NCBI RefSeq assembly: GCF_010470675.1
Contig: NZ_VOIQ01000005.1
Coordinates: forward strand, 186,001 to 250,000
Direction of reading: 5' to 3'
Length of the DNA stretch: 64,000 nucleotides
Source: Desulfovibrio sp. JC010
GTDB taxonomy: Bacteria; Desulfobacterota; Desulfovibrionia; Desulfovibrionales; Desulfovibrionaceae
How positions within the stretch are numbered: position 1 is the first letter of the stretch; each line of letters opens with the position of its first letter. Both the position numbers and the translations under genes were made by a program. This document shows positions 27,188 to 33,495 of the stretch, one piece after another. The notes beneath the pieces are model-generated. The model was not told where the DNA came from, did no database searches, and was given only the letters and a program-made list of their open reading frames with translations.

Positions 27188-28628
27188 CACCCATTCTAAT
27201 CTGAAAAAACTTATCCTCGTCTTCACTGCCAAGGGAGTGAAAGGTGTGGGCGGGCTGCTGCTGGCCTGGGTGCTGGCCAAGAAGTACGGGGCTTACGGTT
27301 CCGGGGTGTTTTTTATCGGCTATACCTTTGCATTTCTCTGTGCCAGTTTTGCGCAACTGGGCATCGGGAACGGTTGTTTGCGCTATATCCCGCAGTTACG
27401 CGCTGAGGATGAATCCAATCTTTCGTCCATGTGGACCATCTCACAACTGATTGTGGGCGCATTTGCTTTGCTGCTTTCGGCGATGGTTATGCTTTTTGCC
27501 GAACCTGCGGCCGGATTGGTTTTTAAAGATGTGTCAAAATGGGCGTATATTTTTTGTGCTGCGCCCATTATTTTTTTCTGGAGCCTGACCAGAATCAACA
27601 TCATGGTCCGCCAGAGCTTAGGGGATATGTCCGGGATTACGCTGGTGGAAAACCTGATAATTCCGGCAGGTATGCTGCTGTTTGGCGGTTTGTCTTTTGT
27701 CATTGATTTCAGCGTGCTTGTTTTTCTGGCGACCGTAACTTCCCTTTATTTTATTTCGTTTTTGTATGCATTTTTCAGCACCCGGAAGGATTATAACTTA
27801 CGGTTCTCGCTGAAGCTGCGCAGTTCTTTGCGGGTGCGGGAAATACTTATCTATTCCATACCGCTGCTGGTCATTGCTTTTTCCCAGACTTCCCTGATCT
27901 GGATAAATACGCTTATTCTCGGTGCTGTGGGGGCTGTTGTTGATGCCGCTCTATTTGTGGCGGCCATGAAAGTTGCGGTGAGTATTTCCATTCTGCTTTA
28001 TACCTTTAACAGCGTTTACGCCCCGCAGATTTCTTCAGCCTATGCCCGTGACGACTTTGATTCTATCCGTTCATTATACCGTGATGCCACCCATGCGCTT
28101 ACCTTTTGTTCCTTTTTGCTGCTGGCTGTAGTGGCGGTTTATGCGGAAGTGATTATGAATTTTTTCGGTGCGCAGTATGATGCAGGAGCAGCCTGTCTGC
28201 TCTGGATGCTGGTCGGGCAGATCTGTAATTGCTATACGGGTCCGGTGGGCTATCTGCTTATTCTTTCAGGTAAATCAAAGCTGGAAGTGTACAATACCGT
28301 TGCCGGATTGGTTCTTAATGCCGGACTCTGCCTGCTGTTTTACAAAACTTTCGGGGTCAGCGGGGCCGGGCTGGCTTTCTGTCTTTCCAATGTGCTTATC
28401 AATCTGCTGCGTTATTTTCAGTGTCGAAGATTCTTCAGAATTAATTGGCTGGATCGCACCCAGAAGTATTTTATTGGGATGCAGATGTTACTGGTCTGCG
28501 CTTTCCTGCTCTTAAATTTTTACAGTGTGAACCGGGAACTGCTGGTCGCGGTACTGTCTGCCGTATATCTGCTGCTTAATATCAGCAACGTTTCCAGCCT
28601 GATCAGCAAGCTGGGCAATCAGCATTAA
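27180..28628 (+). CDS. Wzx-type polysaccharide flippase
   Basis: A 482 aa membrane protein with 12-14 hydrophobic helices, of the oligosaccharide flippase (MOP) superfamily. The N-terminal TAKGVKGVGGLLLAWVLAKK and YGAYGSGVFFIGYTFAFL segments are typical. It would move lipid-linked repeat units across the inner membrane and completes the Wzx/Wzy set of the cluster. The start is TTG 27180, inside the end of the sulfotransferase gene, with AAGGAG 7 bases ahead. Its last 4 bases overlap the end of the convergent wtpC gene. Confidence 0.9.
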   Translation: MSSTHSNLKKLILVFTAKGVKGVGGLLLAWVLAKKYGAYGSGVFFIGYTFAFLCASFAQLGIGNGCLRYIPQLRAEDESNLSSMWTISQLIVGAFALLLSAMVMLFAEPAAGLVFKDVSKWAYIFCAAPIIFFWSLTRINIMVRQSLGDMSGITLVENLIIPAGMLLFGGLSFVIDFSVLVFLATVTSLYFISFLYAFFSTRKDYNLRFSLKLRSSLRVREILIYSIPLLVIAFSQTSLIWINTLILGAVGAVVDAALFVAAMKVAVSISILLYTFNSVYAPQISSAYARDDFDSIRSLYRDATHALTFCSFLLLAVVAVYAEVIMNFFGAQYDAGAACLLWMLVGQICNCYTGPVGYLLILSGKSKLEVYNTVAGLVLNAGLCLLFYKTFGVSGAGLAFCLSNVLINLLRYFQCRRFFRINWLDRTQKYFIGMQMLLVCAFLLLNFYSVNRELLVAVLSAVYLLLNISNVSSLISKLGNQH

Positions 28629-29662
28629 AACAGGTGCAGGCTTTGCTCCGGGATGGCTACTTTAATGGGTAATCCTGGTTCCAGTTCGCCGTTGCCGATC
28701 ATCTTGCGCGGTACAAGGGCGAAAATTTCCAGACCTTCATAATCCAGAGTGACCCGGATATGGAATCCTCCGGCAGTGATGCCCTTGATGATACCGTAGA
28801 AGCTGTTCTGTCCGTTGTGTTCACCTATTTCACTACCCAGCAGCACTTCTTCGGGCCTGAAGGCCAGCATTGTTTCTGACCCTTGTTTTTCCATCCTGCA
28901 ATCAAGTATCAGGTCGCCCAGTTTTACGGAGTCTTTCATGGGAATGCAGGGGAAAGTGTTATTCATGCCTACGAATCCGGCCACAAACTCTGAACCGGGG
29001 GAGTTGAAAATATCGCGGATTTTTCCTTTGCGGACCAGTTCGCCGTTCCTGATGATAGCCCCGTTGGTGGAGAGGTAGAGAGCTTCATCAAAGTCGTGGG
29101 TGACCATCACAAAAGTAATCCCGGTTTCGCGGTGCAGATCTTTGAGCAGGTCCTGAACTTCCTGCCGGAAAGACGGGTCCAGTGCAGAGAGCGGTTCATC
29201 CAGCAGCAGTACTTTGGGCTTTACCAGCAGGGCGCGGGCAATGGCTGCACGCTGGCGTTCCCCGCCGGAAAGGTGGCGCGGGGTGCGGGGCAGAAGGTGG
29301 GAGATATTCAGCTTTTCCGCAAGTTCGGAAGCCTCGCAAACGGCTTTTTCTTCACTGATGCCCTGATATTTGGCACCGAAGATTATGTTTTCCAGTACGC
29401 TTAAGTGCGGAAAAAGAGCGTAGTCCTGATAGACAATGGACAGGCCCCGTTTTTCCGGAGGCAGGTGTACAATTTCATTGCCCGAAATTTTGATGGATCC
29501 TGAAGCTACCGGGACCAGCCCGGCGATGGTTTCCAGCAGCACGGATTTACCAGACCCGGTGGGGCCGAGCAGGGTGAAAAAGTCGCCTTCGGGGATATGC
29601 AGGTTGATGTCCCGCAGGGCGAATTCGGGCAGTTCAACATTGAGTTTTTCGATTTTAATCAT
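28625..29662 (-). CDS. wtpC: Tungstate/molybdate ABC transporter ATP-binding protein
   Basis: A 345 aa ABC ATPase that powers oxyanion import. Walker A is LGPTGSGKSVLL (about 33), the signature is LSGGERQRAAIARAL (about 133), and Walker B is VLLLDEPLSALDP (about 155). A C-terminal beta-rich domain (about 240-345) resembles TOBE/regulatory domains of ModC-type proteins. It overlaps the permease gene by 4 bases and so should be translated with it. The tungstate assignment comes from the WtpA-like binding protein in the same operon; molybdate is also possible. Confidence 0.88.
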   Translation of the reverse strand: MIKIEKLNVELPEFALRDINLHIPEGDFFTLLGPTGSGKSVLLETIAGLVPVASGSIKISGNEIVHLPPEKRGLSIVYQDYALFPHLSVLENIIFGAKYQGISEEKAVCEASELAEKLNISHLLPRTPRHLSGGERQRAAIARALLVKPKVLLLDEPLSALDPSFRQEVQDLLKDLHRETGITFVMVTHDFDEALYLSTNGAIIRNGELVRKGKIRDIFNSPGSEFVAGFVGMNNTFPCIPMKDSVKLGDLILDCRMEKQGSETMLAFRPEEVLLGSEIGEHNGQNSFYGIIKGITAGGFHIRVTLDYEGLEIFALVPRKMIGNGELEPGLPIKVAIPEQSLHLF

Positions 29663-30447
29663 GATTCCCTGCTCCCAAGTCCGCGTGAAAGAAGTCGCAG
29701 TGCCGCAAAGAGCACCAGTGAAAGAAAGATCAGCCAGATAGCCACCGGGCGGGAATATGAAAGCCCGTAGGCGGTGAACCGTTCATACATGAGTACCGGA
29801 GCGATCATGGGATGGTAGGCCACAATAACCACCGCGCCGAATTCACTCAGCGCACGGGCCATGCACATGATCATTCCGGTCAAAAGGGAACGCCATGCAA
29901 GGGGCAGGGTGACCCGGAAAAATGTCTGGGTGGGTGATGCTCCGAGGGTGCGGGCCGCTTTTTCCAGCCGTTCGGGTACGGCCTCAAATCCGTCCCGTGC
30001 GGCATTGAGGTAGAAAGGGAGCCCTACAAAGACCAGCACAGCCACAATCCCGGTATTGGTGCCCATGATGCGGATTCCGGCATCCATCAGCATCTGGCCG
30101 ATCCAGTGGTTGCGTCCGGCTATGGAGAGCAGGGCGATACCGATGACCGGGTGCGGGATCATGATCGGCATGTCGATTATGGATTCCACCAGTGCTTTGC
30201 CTTTGAAGTCCTTGCGGGCCAGCAGGAAAGCGAAGGGAGTGCCGATGGCGAAAGATATGAATGCCGCCAGCCCGGAACAGAGCATACTGCGGGTGATGGC
30301 CGCACGCACATCCGGGTCCATAATGGTCTGGAGCATTTCCTCATAGCTGGAACCGAGGATCAACTGGCTTAAGGGGACAAGAATGAAGCCGAGGACCAGC
30401 ACGGTGGAAACAATGGAGCTGACTGATGTCTTGTGAAATTTTCTCAT
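29659..30447 (-). CDS. wtpB: Tungstate/molybdate ABC transporter permease
   Basis: A 262 aa inner membrane permease with about six helices. The EAA loop for contact with the ATPase is visible in AARTLGASPTQTFFRVTLP. SEFGAVVIVAYHP near 190 is shared with ModB/WtpB/CysT-type permeases. The gene lies between wtpA and wtpC in one minus-strand operon. A strong hairpin lies between wtpA and this gene and probably lowers its expression compared with the binding protein. The ribosome binding site is weak. Confidence 0.9.
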   Translation of the reverse strand: MRKFHKTSVSSIVSTVLVLGFILVPLSQLILGSSYEEMLQTIMDPDVRAAITRSMLCSGLAAFISFAIGTPFAFLLARKDFKGKALVESIIDMPIMIPHPVIGIALLSIAGRNHWIGQMLMDAGIRIMGTNTGIVAVLVFVGLPFYLNAARDGFEAVPERLEKAARTLGASPTQTFFRVTLPLAWRSLLTGMIMCMARALSEFGAVVIVAYHPMIAPVLMYERFTAYGLSYSRPVAIWLIFLSLVLFAALRLLSRGLGSRES

Positions 30448-30458
30448 GGCAGGAATAA

Positions 30459-30488
30459 GGAAAGCCGGGATTTAACCCCCGGCTTTCC
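30459..30488 (-). terminator. Intra-operon hairpin between wtpA and wtpB
   Basis: Perfect arms GGAAAGCCGGG and CCCGGCTTTCC. It lies 15 bases after the wtpA stop on the minus strand with only a short T-containing tail. Such hairpins commonly protect the binding-protein message from 3' decay or act as partial terminators. Confidence 0.75.
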
Positions 30489-30502
30489 GTTGTAAGGTCA
30501 GA

Positions 30503-31480
30503 TTATTTCTTTACTTTGACGAGTTTCTGGAGCTCGGCAGGCATGTTCTTGACCATTGCTTCGTCAGGAACGATGGCCGGAACAAAGGGGGGCTGGCCCA
30601 TTTCTTTCAGGATTTTCAGGCCGCCCTCAGGGGAGAGCATGTAAGCCATGAAAGCTGTGGCGGCAGGCTTGTTGGGGGCATCTTTGATCTGGGTGATGCC
30701 GTAGGTGATGGATTTACCGATACGGTCGATGGTGGTGCCGGGCTTTTTGCCGCTGACAGTCACTTTAGCCTGCTTGTAGAAGTTGTTGTATTTGTAGTCG
30801 GAAAGGTTGATGTGTTTGTCGAGGGTGATGTATTTCAGACCGTGCTGTACTGCCACGGAGAGGTATTCCCATGCGTAATCCATGTTTCCGGTCTTGAGCA
30901 GGGAGATCAGCTCAACGGATTTGGGGCGGACCCATTCTTTTTTGCGCTGGGAGATCAGCTTATCAAAGAGACCTTTTTTGCCGTAAAATTTTTCAGCCAG
31001 CTGCAGAACCATGACACTGCGGTAGCCGCAGGGGTCGAGGTTGGGATCGGAGTGGCCCCAGACAACGCCGGGCTTGGCGAGGATTTCATACCAGTTGTCT
31101 GCGTTCACTTCGGAAGCGTATTTGGAATCGTCGGTGTAGCAGAGTACCAGCTGGTTGGTGGCGAAACGGATGTTGAAGTCCGCGTATTTGGGGATCAGGT
31201 TCTTGTCGATGACCACATAGTCGGCGGAAGCCATGATGTCTGCGGGCTTGCCCACTTCGGAAATCATGCGCGCCATTTTGGTGGAACCGCCGGCTTCACG
31301 TTTGATGTCAACACCGGGATGCATGGCTTCGAATTCCTTTTCCATCTTGGCAAGGGGAACAGAAAGGCTGCCTGCGTGAAACATGATCACATCACCGCTG
31401 ATTTCATCTGCGGCAAAGGCGGGCATAGCTGATACCAGTGAAAGCATAACGAGCATCACTCCTAAAGATATAAAACGCAT
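30503..31480 (-). CDS. wtpA: Tungstate ABC transporter substrate-binding protein
   Basis: A 325 aa periplasmic protein with a signal peptide ending at about AFA-ADE (residue 24). The segments [32 protein letters not shown] and [14 protein letters not shown] match the WtpA branch of molybdate/tungstate binding proteins rather than the TupA branch. Tungsten is used by tungsten formate dehydrogenases and aldehyde oxidoreductases of sulfate reducers, which gives a rationale. A GGAGAG site precedes the ATG. A sigma-70-like promoter is visible 50-80 bases upstream. Confidence 0.92.
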
Positions 31481-31530
31481 TTTCTCTCTCCAGTTTAGGA
31501 TAGTTAAAATTTAAGGGCAATTGGAATAAC

Positions 31531-31559
31531 CGTATATTTAGTAGGGGAATTGTTGTCAA
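31531..31559 (-). promoter_or_regulatory. Sigma-70-type promoter for wtpABC
   Basis: On the minus strand TTGACA (31554-31559) and TATACG (31531-31536) are separated by 17 bases, and the wtpA start is about 50 bases downstream. No classical ModE palindrome was recognised. Confidence 0.6.
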
Positions 31560-31593
31560 ACTGGTGATATGTCATGCGCTGCATAATAAAAAA

Positions 31594-31623
31594 AGGCAAA
31601 AAAAAGCAGCATATGAATGCTGC
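31594..31623 (-). terminator. Terminator of the ribbon-helix-helix gene
   Basis: On the minus strand the arms GCAGCAT and ATGCTGC (31606-31623) are followed by eight T residues. It lies about 100 bases downstream of the small regulator gene and separates it from wtpA. Confidence 0.85.
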
Positions 31624-31725
31624 GCGGTATGGACTCTTTGTCCGGGAAGAAGAAACATGGGCGCAAAAATGCTGCCGCTTGTTATTTGGGGGTGTGAACG
31701 AGCGGCTTTTTAAACTTGAATCCGT

Positions 31726-31947
31726 TTAGTGCGTGATCTGCTTGGTTGCAGTCTTGGAAGTCATTTCGCTGTCATTGCAGAGTTTGACCCTGTTGTAAAA
31801 GAGGTCTTCAGGACCTGCCTTGCTGAAGAGTTCCTGCAGCAATACGTTCAGGAACATGGACTTGCTGATTCCCAAGTTCTCGCAGGCATCTTCAATTTTT
31901 TCATTGATTTCGTGGTTCAGATACACATCTGATAACCGTGTATGCAT
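31726..31947 (-). CDS. Small ribbon-helix-helix-like protein
   Basis: A 73 aa protein. The N-terminal beta-strand-like MHTRLSDVYLNHEINEKIEDACENL and the following LGISKSMFLNVLLQELF resemble the strand-helix-helix layout of CopG/Arc-type DNA-binding proteins; the family assignment is by pattern only. A perfect ribosome binding site (AAGGAGG) precedes the ATG, and the gene has its own promoter and terminator, which argues that it is real. It sits upstream of wtpABC but is a separate transcript. It could regulate wtp or itself. It could also be an antitoxin without a visible toxin. Confidence 0.65.
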   Translation of the reverse strand: MHTRLSDVYLNHEINEKIEDACENLGISKSMFLNVLLQELFSKAGPEDLFYNRVKLCNDSEMTSKTATKQITH

Positions 31948-31980
31948 AGTTGCCTCCTTAAATGATTGTTCTCGTTTACT

Positions 31981-31998
31981 ATTATATTGAGTTTCAAT
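31981..31998 (-). promoter_or_regulatory. Promoter with overlapping palindrome for the small regulator
   Basis: Read on the minus strand, TATAAT (31981-31986) is a perfect -10 box about 35 bases before the start codon. Directly next to it lies ATTGA-GTT-TCAAT (31986-31998), a palindrome in the spacer. This placement would suit autorepression. Confidence 0.5.
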
Positions 31999-32126
31999 TC
32001 AGTGTTTCTTCGCTTACCGCTACTTAATACATAATATGAAAAACTTGTTATGTACAGGGGGTTGCGCCGATTTAACCGTTCTGTCGTCAATTCTTAAACT
32101 TGGAATTTTGCACCAGACTGAACGGA

Positions 32127-32189
32127 TGTGCAGTTTGTGAACTTGTGCATTGCACATATGTGCAAAAATAATGTGCAAATGGATGTGCA
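32127..32189 (+). promoter_or_regulatory. Array of TGTGCA operator half-sites
   Basis: TGTGCA occurs at 32127, 32144, 32159, 32172 and 32184, and its reverse complement TGCACA at 32151. The central part forms the perfect palindrome TGCACATATGTGCA (32151-32164) and a second one, TGTGCA-T-TGCACA (32144-32156). It lies 60-125 bases upstream of the -24 element, the usual place for a sigma-54 enhancer-binding activator. Confidence 0.7.
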
Positions 32190-32248
32190 GATCAGGGTGG
32201 GAAAATGTTTAAAAATGATAAGTTGTTGTAAAGTAAGGGAAAGTGTTT

Positions 32249-32264
32249 TTGGCACGCTAGATGC
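32249..32264 (+). promoter_or_regulatory. Sigma-54 (RpoN) type promoter
   Basis: TTGGCACGCTAGATGC matches the -24/-12 consensus TTGGCACGNNNNTTGC at all but one fixed position, with GG and GC exactly 10 bases apart. The predicted start of transcription is near 32275 on the plus strand. No plus-strand gene follows for more than 4 kb. Confidence 0.75.
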
Positions 32265-32274
32265 TAAGTAGAAA

Positions 32275-32413
32275 AGCAAGACGGGCGAGGAAATTGTTCC
32301 CCTGCACTTTCCTCAAGCATAGCCCGAATAAATATACAGTCTTCATTCCTCATCATCACTCCTTTAAGTATAAAAGGACCGGGCTCCTCCAACCCGGTCC
32401 TTTTATATTTTTT
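32275..32413 (+). ncRNA. Candidate sigma-54-dependent small RNA, about 140 nt
   Basis: The interval between the sigma-54 promoter and the terminator contains a 5' stem (CGGGC 32282-32286 with GCCCG 32322-32326; GAGGAAA 32287-32293 with TTTCCTC 32308-32314), an open CU-rich middle with TTCCTC (32346) and CTCCTTT (32359), and a terminator hairpin whose loop reads CTCCTCC (32384-32390). These pyrimidine tracts could pair with Shine-Dalgarno sequences of target mRNAs. The layout resembles that of the sigma-54-driven Qrr RNAs of Vibrio, with no sequence similarity claimed. A weak TTG-initiated frame crosses the region and looks accidental. Confidence 0.6.
32372..32413 (+). terminator. Intrinsic terminator of the candidate small RNA
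   Basis: Perfect arms AAAAGGACCGGG (32372-32383) and CCCGGTCCTTTT (32393-32404) with a 9-base loop, followed by ATATTTTTT. Outer sequences TTTAAGTAT and ATACTTAAA could extend the pairing. Confidence 0.9.
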
Positions 32414-32428
32414 ATACTTAAATAAAAG

Positions 32429-32458
32429 AACGGCCGGTCTTTCTTAGTCCGGCCGTTA
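32429..32458 (-). terminator. Terminator of the FMN dehydrogenase transcript
   Basis: Arms AACGGCCGG and CCGGCCGTT, followed on the minus strand by CTTTTATTT. It lies 26 bases beyond the stop codon of the dehydrogenase gene. Confidence 0.8.
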
Positions 32459-32484
32459 TCATAAGTCTTAATCCCAGTGACCAA

Positions 32485-33495
32485 TTAACGGTACAGAACC
32501 CTGATATCCACAAAGCTAGCCTTTTCAGTCCCGGTGAGAACCATGGCAGCGGTGAGTTCTGCTTTGAGCTGGTCGATGTATTTTTCAACACCTTCCAGCA
32601 GACCGCCCATGGTGGCAATGGAGAAGGGGCGGCCGATCATGACTGCATCCGCGCCCAGTGCCAGCATTTTAAGCACGTCGCTTCCGGTGCGTACGCCGCC
32701 GTCGACCATTACGGAACACTGTCCGGCAACAGCGCGGGAAATTTCAAAGAGCACCTCCGCTGTGCCGGGGCAGGAATCGAGCACGCGTCCACCGTGGTTG
32801 GAAACAACGATGCCTTTTGCTCCGGCATCAATTGCCATGCGTGCTTCATCCGGGGTCATGATGCCTTTGAGGATGAAGTCGGCATTGACGGATTCTATAA
32901 TCTCGCGCAGTTTGCGCATGCATTTGGGGGTAACCGGGCGGCCCATTTTTTTAAGGGTGATCAGGCCCGCAGCATCGATATCCATGCCGATGATCTTACT
33001 TCCGGTTTCTTCCGCTTTCCGGAGTTTCTCGTTCAGTTCTTTATCTTCCCAGGGCTTGATAAAGGGAATGCCGTGTCCGGCAACATCTTTGATAGCCGCA
33101 AAGCCGCTTTCATGGATAAAGGGCGGTACCCCGTCTCCTGTGCAGCCGATAATTCCTTTTTCCTTACAGCCTTTGAGCTTGTTGGTGATGTAGTCCAGCT
33201 CGCTGACCTTGCCGCCCATGTTGAATTCCACACCGCCGATGGGGGCGGCAATGACCGGGATATCAAGGTCGATGCCCATGACATTGACTGAAGTGTCCGG
33301 TTCACTGAATTCATGGATGGTGCGCATGTTCAGCTTCAGATCTTCTAGAGCCTTAACATTGTTCTTGAAGCTGGATGCGGTACCCAGTCCGCCCATGCCG
33401 GGAACCTCGCCCACGCAGGCTTTACCGTTACAAACGGGGCAGACTTTGCAGTAGCCTTTCATCAATTCACGAGCATTATCACGTATTTCTTTCAT
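32485..33495 (-). CDS. FMN-dependent 2-hydroxyacid dehydrogenase
   Basis: A 336 aa flavoprotein of the lactate/glycolate oxidase superfamily. The (beta/alpha)8 barrel shows VIAAPIGG, FILKGIMTPDEARMA with the conserved Lys, VVSNHGGRVLD with the active-site His and Arg, and VDGGVRTGSDVLKMLALGAD for FMN phosphate. It differs from aerobic enzymes in a cysteine-rich N-terminus (CKVCPVCNGKAC, about 18-29), which may bind a metal or cluster. Lactate or another 2-hydroxyacid is the likely substrate. It is downstream of a TauE-type permease and a GntR/FadR regulator on the same strand. AAGGAG precedes the ATG. Confidence 0.87.
   Translation of the reverse strand: MKEIRDNARELMKGYCKVCPVCNGKACVGEVPGMGGLGTASSFKNNVKALEDLKLNMRTIHEFSEPDTSVNVMGIDLDIPVIAAPIGGVEFNMGGKVSELDYITNKLKGCKEKGIIGCTGDGVPPFIHESGFAAIKDVAGHGIPFIKPWEDKELNEKLRKAEETGSKIIGMDIDAAGLITLKKMGRPVTPKCMRKLREIIESVNADFILKGIMTPDEARMAIDAGAKGIVVSNHGGRVLDSCPGTAEVLFEISRAVAGQCSVMVDGGVRTGSDVLKMLALGADAVMIGRPFSIATMGGLLEGVEKYIDQLKAELTAAMVLTGTEKASFVDIRVLYR

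Follow-up and report, generated by a model that had tools for sequence, protein, structure and literature searches.

A putative upstream activating sequence of TGTGCA repeats at a sigma-54 promoter preceding a predicted small RNA in Desulfovibrio

The window considered here, a stretch of 64,000 nucleotides (64 kb) from contig C5 of Desulfovibrio sp. JC010, contains an array of six short repeats whose interpretation as the upstream activating sequence of a sigma-54 promoter is well supported by its arrangement and conservation. The conserved stretch past this promoter is predicted to be a small RNA. We consider it likely, judging from the DNA, that the array is a binding site for a ZraR-like regulator, which in its phosphorylated form would activate this small RNA; the RNA in turn would probably repress chosen mRNAs. 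Two features extend the initial annotation of the array as an enhancer: the promoter appears to drive a small RNA, and the same motif is found at ZraP-like genes next to a kinase/regulator pair.

The TGTGCA array and its sigma-54 promoter

The array occupies 32127..32189 on the + strand and is the proposed upstream activating sequence (enhancer). The initial annotation had described five TGTGCA copies, starting at 32127, 32144, 32159, 32172 and 32184, together with one TGCACA at 32151, and all of them were found at these positions. The two overlapping palindromes that it had derived from them are also present, as TGTGCATTGCACA (32144-32156) and TGCACATATGTGCA (32151-32164). The best conserved portion of the array is its core palindrome, TTGCACATATGTGCAA, at 32150..32165 (no strand assigned).

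Over the whole window, the hexamer is not over-represented, both strands together giving 27 TGTGCA/TGCACA matches versus 33 expected. Nevertheless, no other hexamer family of the window packs as many non-overlapping copies into 63 bp. Such a density had been called very unlikely by chance, and this was borne out, since six copies in 63 bp were reached by 0/300 shuffles of the window and 0/5000 shuffles of the spacer: the largest 63-bp cluster in the 300 dinucleotide shuffles of the 64 kb held four copies, once, and the 5000 shuffles of the 537-bp spacer gave a maximum of three, also once. Searched across all 4.39 Mb of the genome, TGTGCAN{4,30}TGTGCAN{4,30}GTGCA has five matches (reversed control, 0), three of which are the array itself, one the promoter of a ZraP-like gene, and one a site upstream of an Lrp-like gene (by eye). 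The pattern TGCACN{3,8}GTGCA occurs at 29 places in the host genome versus 5 in the control; those with inspected surroundings are a group at C1 496.9-500.2 kb, C6:37781, C1:173772, and the array.

Two clusters elsewhere in the host genome lie by genes that were classed by eye. At C6 ~37.8 kb (L047 5773-5820), TGTGCACATTGCACA and more GTGCA/TGCAC copies lie near the start of a TPR-like gene on the - strand, and at C16 ~65.7 kb (L048 5701-5762), three TGTGCA direct repeats lie upstream of an Lrp/AsnC-like gene with a sigma-70-like promoter. At C6:37772 and C16:65700, the patterns used gave no nearby sigma-54 element in the stretch from the cluster to the gene.

The sigma-54 type element (-24/-12) of the array is TGGCACGCTAGATGCT, at 32250..32265 on the + strand and 60 bp past the array end, and it shows the GG-N10-GC arrangement of such elements. 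Activator sites of sigma-54 promoters are usually located some 60-150 bp upstream; the six hexamers span -123 to -61 relative to the element, providing conserved activator-like sites at the expected distance. Position, promoter, and conservation thus all fit an upstream activating sequence, as the initial annotation had proposed from the location. TGGCACN6TGCT has 19 sites in the host genome, and the only three with at least two hexamers within 200 bp upstream (3/19) precede the small RNA (six hexamers) and two ZraP-like genes (two and three hexamers). Together with the genome-wide rarity of the three-repeat pattern, this bears indirectly on one condition that the initial annotation had named against the enhancer, an equal frequency of the motif in random intergenic DNA.

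The same arrangement is found throughout the genus. TGGCACN6TGCT with 4-8 TGTGCA/TGCACA copies no more than 180 bp upstream is present in 17/17 genus genomes (14 loci aligned via the fixed promoter pattern, the other three read by eye), and none of these genomes has lost the association of the array with the sigma-54 element and the RNA. Absence of the array from orthologous intergenic regions had been named as evidence that would count against the enhancer, and its presence in 17/17 genomes favours the earlier claim. Read by eye, TGCAC-N4-GTGCA is found at 16/17 loci and the longer TTGCAC-N4-GTGCAA at 15/17, the L022 version ending in G; the core palindrome is absent from G002 (L016), which has half-sites only. 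A DNA search gave matches in 16/16 other genus genomes, some over the RNA part only, and in 0/41 genomes outside the genus, and a plasmid collection searched with the intergenic stretch gave no match.

The array spacer is bounded by an FMN-dependent dehydrogenase gene (32485-33495, - strand) and a divergent 73-aa ORF (31726..31947, - strand), which is ribbon-helix-helix-like (RHH-like) by eye and matches neither Pfam nor NCBIfam models at E<=0.001. In 17/17 genus genomes, this ORF adjoins the array in divergent orientation, and it was found in 0/41 relatives outside the genus at E<=0.001. It is restricted to the genus and has conserved upstream blocks of its own; the matched frame in G004 contains one stop. 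A terminator-like hairpin (31606-31623) separates the ORF from a tungstate transporter region (28625-31480), where 30503-31480 meets the WtpA equivalog cut-off and ATPase and permease ORFs were recognised by eye.

Structure and possible targets of the predicted small RNA

The predicted small RNA, of ~135-140 nt, would extend over 32277..32412 on the + strand, its start being placed from the -12 element and its end from a hairpin. In the fold of 32274-32412, three + strand features can be distinguished: a 5' hairpin with a C-rich loop, UCCCCU (32282..32326); the linker UCUUCAUUCCUCAUCAUCACUCCUU (32340..32364), which is complementary to a Shine-Dalgarno sequence plus start codon and is the best conserved unpaired stretch; and a terminator-like hairpin with the loop CUCCUCCAA, followed by a T run (32366..32410). 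A simple terminator scan (loop limit 8) calls this last hairpin on the - strand only, the + strand terminator being judged from the fold, and the hairpin may additionally serve the gene on the - strand.

The linker is pyrimidine-rich and nearly invariant in the alignment of all 17 RNA regions. Four RNAs spread over this alignment, two of them folded from stretches lacking a few 5' bases, fold better than all 200 shuffles of each (z -8.35, -6.50, -9.15, and -6.27); the middle of the linker, CAUUCCUCAUCAUCAC, is unpaired in 4/4 folds, and its first bases are paired in 2/4. The consensus structure has 15 pairs, and two-sided changes with pairing kept are seen in 7 of these (3/4 in the 5' hairpin and 4/11 in the terminator hairpin), which do not amount to seven independent proofs because the sequences are related. 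The stretch is intergenic and structured, carries a terminator-like hairpin, and is conserved in both sequence and structure, as expected of a trans-acting small RNA.

A covariance model run with stricter filters recovers this RNA in 17/17 genus genomes with at least 110 bits. Outside the genus, the 280 genomes of the order that were searched gave no strong match (0/280) and 11 matches at E<=0.01, the best with 33 bits; one of these weak loci, L191, has a loose sigma-54 element with two hexamers at a distance of ~1 kb, and nothing of the kind is present at the ten remaining loci. The six Rfam matches at E<=1 in the region 31400-32600 are all below threshold, the best having 28.9 bits versus the 54 required. 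The linker pattern was found in six records of a named genome collection, from which near records may be omitted; two of them are Desulfovibrio (UBA2564 and Glu_egg_str_bin110), and the remaining four, from unrelated groups, are probably due to chance.

Since the linker, the 5' loop, and the terminator loop are all complementary to the Shine-Dalgarno sequence, the RNA would be expected to act by translational repression. A target search with the 18-base complement and up to 3 mismatches gave five hits (control, 1), one of them the locus of the RNA itself. Of the four others, three are start-codon regions, of RpoD-like, FadL-like, and DctP-like genes (named by eye), matches that are partly expected because the query itself contains a Shine-Dalgarno sequence and an ATG. 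When the FadL-like start was ranked against 178 background starts, 0 to 2 of them were equal or better in six genomes, 4 to 22 in five, and 31 to 41 in three, no start being called in the other three; it ranks high in 6/17 genomes and lower in others, and FadL was not accepted as a target. With the host linker, ftsA (by eye) makes up nine of the ten best-scoring background start regions, a gene sampled solely on account of its proximity to the zra locus. By eye, ftsA starts with TGATGAGGAG, complementary to the small-RNA linker, are present at nine loci (L046, L069, L072, L074, L075, L076, L077, L078, and L082).

A ZraR-like regulator as candidate activator

The initial annotation had placed the activator outside the window, which agrees with the position of the candidate on another contig, at C1:503,497-504,921. 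Pattern searches found three motif places at C1 ~496.9-500.2 kb, two of which precede ZraP-like genes; these genes follow TGGCACACCCTGTGCT and TGGCACACCACGTGCT, upstream of which lie sites of the TGTGCA type. These two genes are followed by those of a DUF4405 protein, a histidine kinase, and a response regulator (L046 9526-14925). The locus thus has the composition of a ZraPSR-type system, with kinase and sigma-54 regulator genes beside ZraP-like genes under sigma-54 type promoters. The third place (L046 6916-7020, C1 ~496.9 kb) consists of TGCACTTATGTGCAACTGCATTGCACA and a degenerate -24/-12-like element, TTGCACAGCAATTGCA, upstream of a gene for an FtrD-like protein (Pfam) and of ABC permease and ABC ATPase genes (by eye); it is possibly a further member of the ZraR-like regulon.

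The response regulator has a receiver domain, a sigma-54 interaction domain, a Fis-type helix-turn-helix (HTH), and the GAFTGA loop, and it was found at E<=1e-150 in 17/17 genus genomes. The ZraP-like proteins belong to Pfam Metal_resist and remain below the NCBIfam ZraP cut-off, the equivalog cut-offs being missed for ZraP (47 vs 200 bits), ZraS (217 vs 479), and ZraR (405 vs 760). Among NCBIfam models, the kinase scores best with AtoS (224) and the regulator with AtoC (446), both below their own cut-offs, and NtrC also scores above ZraR; the term ZraR-like therefore rests on the ZraP neighbourhood. The regulator is ZraR-like by neighbourhood and domain order and is not an equivalog.

The association of motif and zraP promoters recurs within and outside the genus. 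A scan of the zra locus in each of the 17 genus genomes, restricted to promoters of the TGGCAC type having two or more GTGCA/TGCAC copies within 200 bp, gave 23 promoters in 16/17 genomes, the contig of G009 ending too early. At least two full hexamers are carried by 20/23, and 22/23 are followed by an ORF with a ZraP-like start (by eye; in G001, L072:7979, another frame was called). The spacing of the half-sites differs between the small-RNA array and the zraP promoters, as it does between clades at zraP. In the order, the regulator was found at E<=1e-120 in 82/120 genomes, six of them in the genus, and 20 loci were hand-picked across genera from the 76 non-genus genomes with a match. A TGGCAC-type promoter with at least two hexamers stands before a ZraP-like gene at 12/20 of these loci, shortly before it at 11 and about 300 bp before it at L154. 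A thirteenth locus, L162, has a looser element only. The promoter patterns found nothing at 7/20 loci (8/20 with the stricter pattern); of these seven, L160, L164, and L167 have no ZraP-like hit, and L165 has an incomplete contig. Of 37 loci, 36 retain ISRRTLQY in the HTH, and 25 (17/17 in the genus) retain ISRRTLQYKLKKYGL. Since the HTH is kept both with and without the motif, it agrees with the assignment but does not prove it.

Other readings of the array and of the conserved stretch have to be weighed against this one. Chance clustering of one hexamer in AT-rich spacer DNA would draw on the shortness of the repeat unit and nothing else; the shuffles never reached six copies, and, because the array is conserved in 17/17 genus genomes, this explanation is refuted and its probability practically nil. 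Instead of an RNA, the stretch past the promoter could be a gene for a short peptide, either on the - strand, after an AAGGAG, or on the + strand, given that the linker in reverse complement has the form of a Shine-Dalgarno sequence plus ATG, that a MRNEDCI-like start recurs in 16/17 rows of the alignment, and that a 54-codon + strand frame (32261-32425) overlaps the RNA. However, the - strand product varies in length and sequence beyond ~8 residues (8 to 27 in the stretch read), its ATG turns into ATA in some rows, and indels shift its frame; the 54-codon frame begins inside the -12 element, ahead of any transcript, and no + strand frame is common to the 17 rows. The promoter, the linker, and the covariation in the hairpins are in line with an RNA on the + strand, and a peptide gene is very improbable.

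RHH repressors commonly bind arrays of short repeats, and, with its ORF divergent beside the array in every genus genome, the 73-aa protein might use it as an operator for repressing its own gene and/or the small RNA. Contrary to this reading, which we regard as improbable, the array lies ~180 bp from the ORF start versus 60 bp from the sigma-54 element, and the motif recurs at zraP-type promoters of genera in which searches did not detect the ORF. As 12/20 out-of-genus zra genomes have the motif and 0/20 the ORF at E<=0.01 (an empty result that is weak by itself, from a set sharing five genomes with the 41 relatives), the motif seems not to need the 73-aa protein, for which an added role at the array spacer is possible. 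The array could also be bound by another sigma-54 activator, such as the counterpart of Desulfovibrio vulgaris DVU1419, the likeness to the zraP sites then reflecting a shared specificity. DVU1419 is listed with an ncRNA target and with envelope stress (PMC4641369). However, across several genera the motif goes with zraP promoters that lie next to the ZraR-like gene, and the small RNA is not evidently the one linked to DVU1419, since it has no strong homologue in the 280 order genomes outside the genus, among which D. vulgaris is perhaps not included; such an activator is thus unlikely.

Proposed mechanism and comparison with known systems

From the anatomy of the DNA, its conservation, the motif common to the zraP-like promoters, and the RNA structure with its covariation, we infer the signal, protein binding, transcription, and action on mRNAs as follows. 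The array would be recognised by the ZraR-like regulator of the NtrC family, encoded on another contig beside the kinase and two ZraP-like periplasmic proteins. Upon envelope or metal stress, sensed by the kinase, the regulator would be phosphorylated and would occupy the central palindrome and the flanking half-sites, contacting the sigma-54 RNA polymerase at TGGCACGCTAGATGCT through DNA looping, and transcription of the ~135-nt small RNA would begin. This RNA would expose C-rich sequence complementary to ribosome-binding sites and probably repress the translation of a set of mRNAs. Phosphorylated activators of the NtrC family bind a palindrome, oligomerise on neighbouring half-sites, and remodel the sigma-54 polymerase by looping. 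With six half-sites in 63 bp, activation would tend to be cooperative and switch-like.

As a more tentative reading, somewhat doubtful at present, this genus could have a ZraPSR-type system with a hard-wired small-RNA arm, in which the regulator of the periplasmic chaperones also makes an anti-Shine-Dalgarno RNA that blocks envelope or growth proteins. The FadL-like outer-membrane protein, FtsA, RpoD, and a TRAP binding protein would be weak candidate targets. In enterobacteria, the small RNAs of the sigma-E and Cpx responses repress envelope protein synthesis in comparable fashion. If true, a ZraR-type system would also act post-transcriptionally, via RNA, and an envelope-stress system would gain an RNA arm. 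A motif from one gene set can, moreover, point to the regulator behind an orphan enhancer. In sulfate reducers, it remains unknown which processes many sigma-54 activators control (PMC4641369), and a concrete regulator, binding motif, and small-RNA target are now proposed for these bacteria.

The closest known system is ZraPSR from Escherichia coli and Salmonella, which likewise has a kinase and a sigma-54 regulator of the NtrC family next to ZraP-like genes with sigma-54 promoters and upstream sites. Contrary to the GTGCA-type motif found here, the zraP/zraSR spacer of E. coli K-12 carries the repeat GAGTAAAAATGACTCGC and contains no GTGCA, and the HTH segment of K-12 ZraR differs from the ISRRTLQY-type segment of the host regulator. 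The host system also differs in its apparent small-RNA target and in family scores below the NCBIfam cut-offs. The consensus of NtrC sites is TGCAC-N7-GTGCA; an NtrC site was rejected, since its half-sites have to be 7 bp apart and the core of the array is TGCAC-N4-GTGCA. We know of no earlier small RNA under a ZraR-type regulator, and none was found in the portions of the literature searched, which covered sources outside subscription journals. The E. coli ZraR targets given in PMC7657598 are zraP, zraSR, and mgtA, and a ChIP-seq study is cited for 25 more in PMC8249747.

Small RNAs under sigma-54 activators are represented by QseE/QseF (GlrR)-glmY, which resembles the system proposed here in having a two-component sigma-54 activator upstream of a small-RNA gene and a link to envelope homeostasis. 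QseF/GlrR activates the small RNA glmY (PMC6075780 and PMC4987338), and the latter source gives its sites as TGTC(N)10GACA, unlike those of the array; the small-RNA region has no Rfam match near threshold for glmY or for any other Rfam family. D. vulgaris DVU1419, DVU0653, and DVU0679 are sigma-54 response regulators with ncRNA targets (PMC4641369 and PMC3333781), and they are similar to the host regulator in being NtrC-family response regulators of a sulfate reducer with such targets. DVU3381, listed with the envelope-stress targets DVU3382-DVU3381 and DVU3384, most resembles the host regulator in these targets and in its envelope-stress label, yet no ncRNA target is listed for it; that it is the counterpart of the host regulator is a guess. 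Sigma-54 regulators driving small RNAs are, therefore, already known, and what is added here is the proposed activator together with the predicted small RNA.
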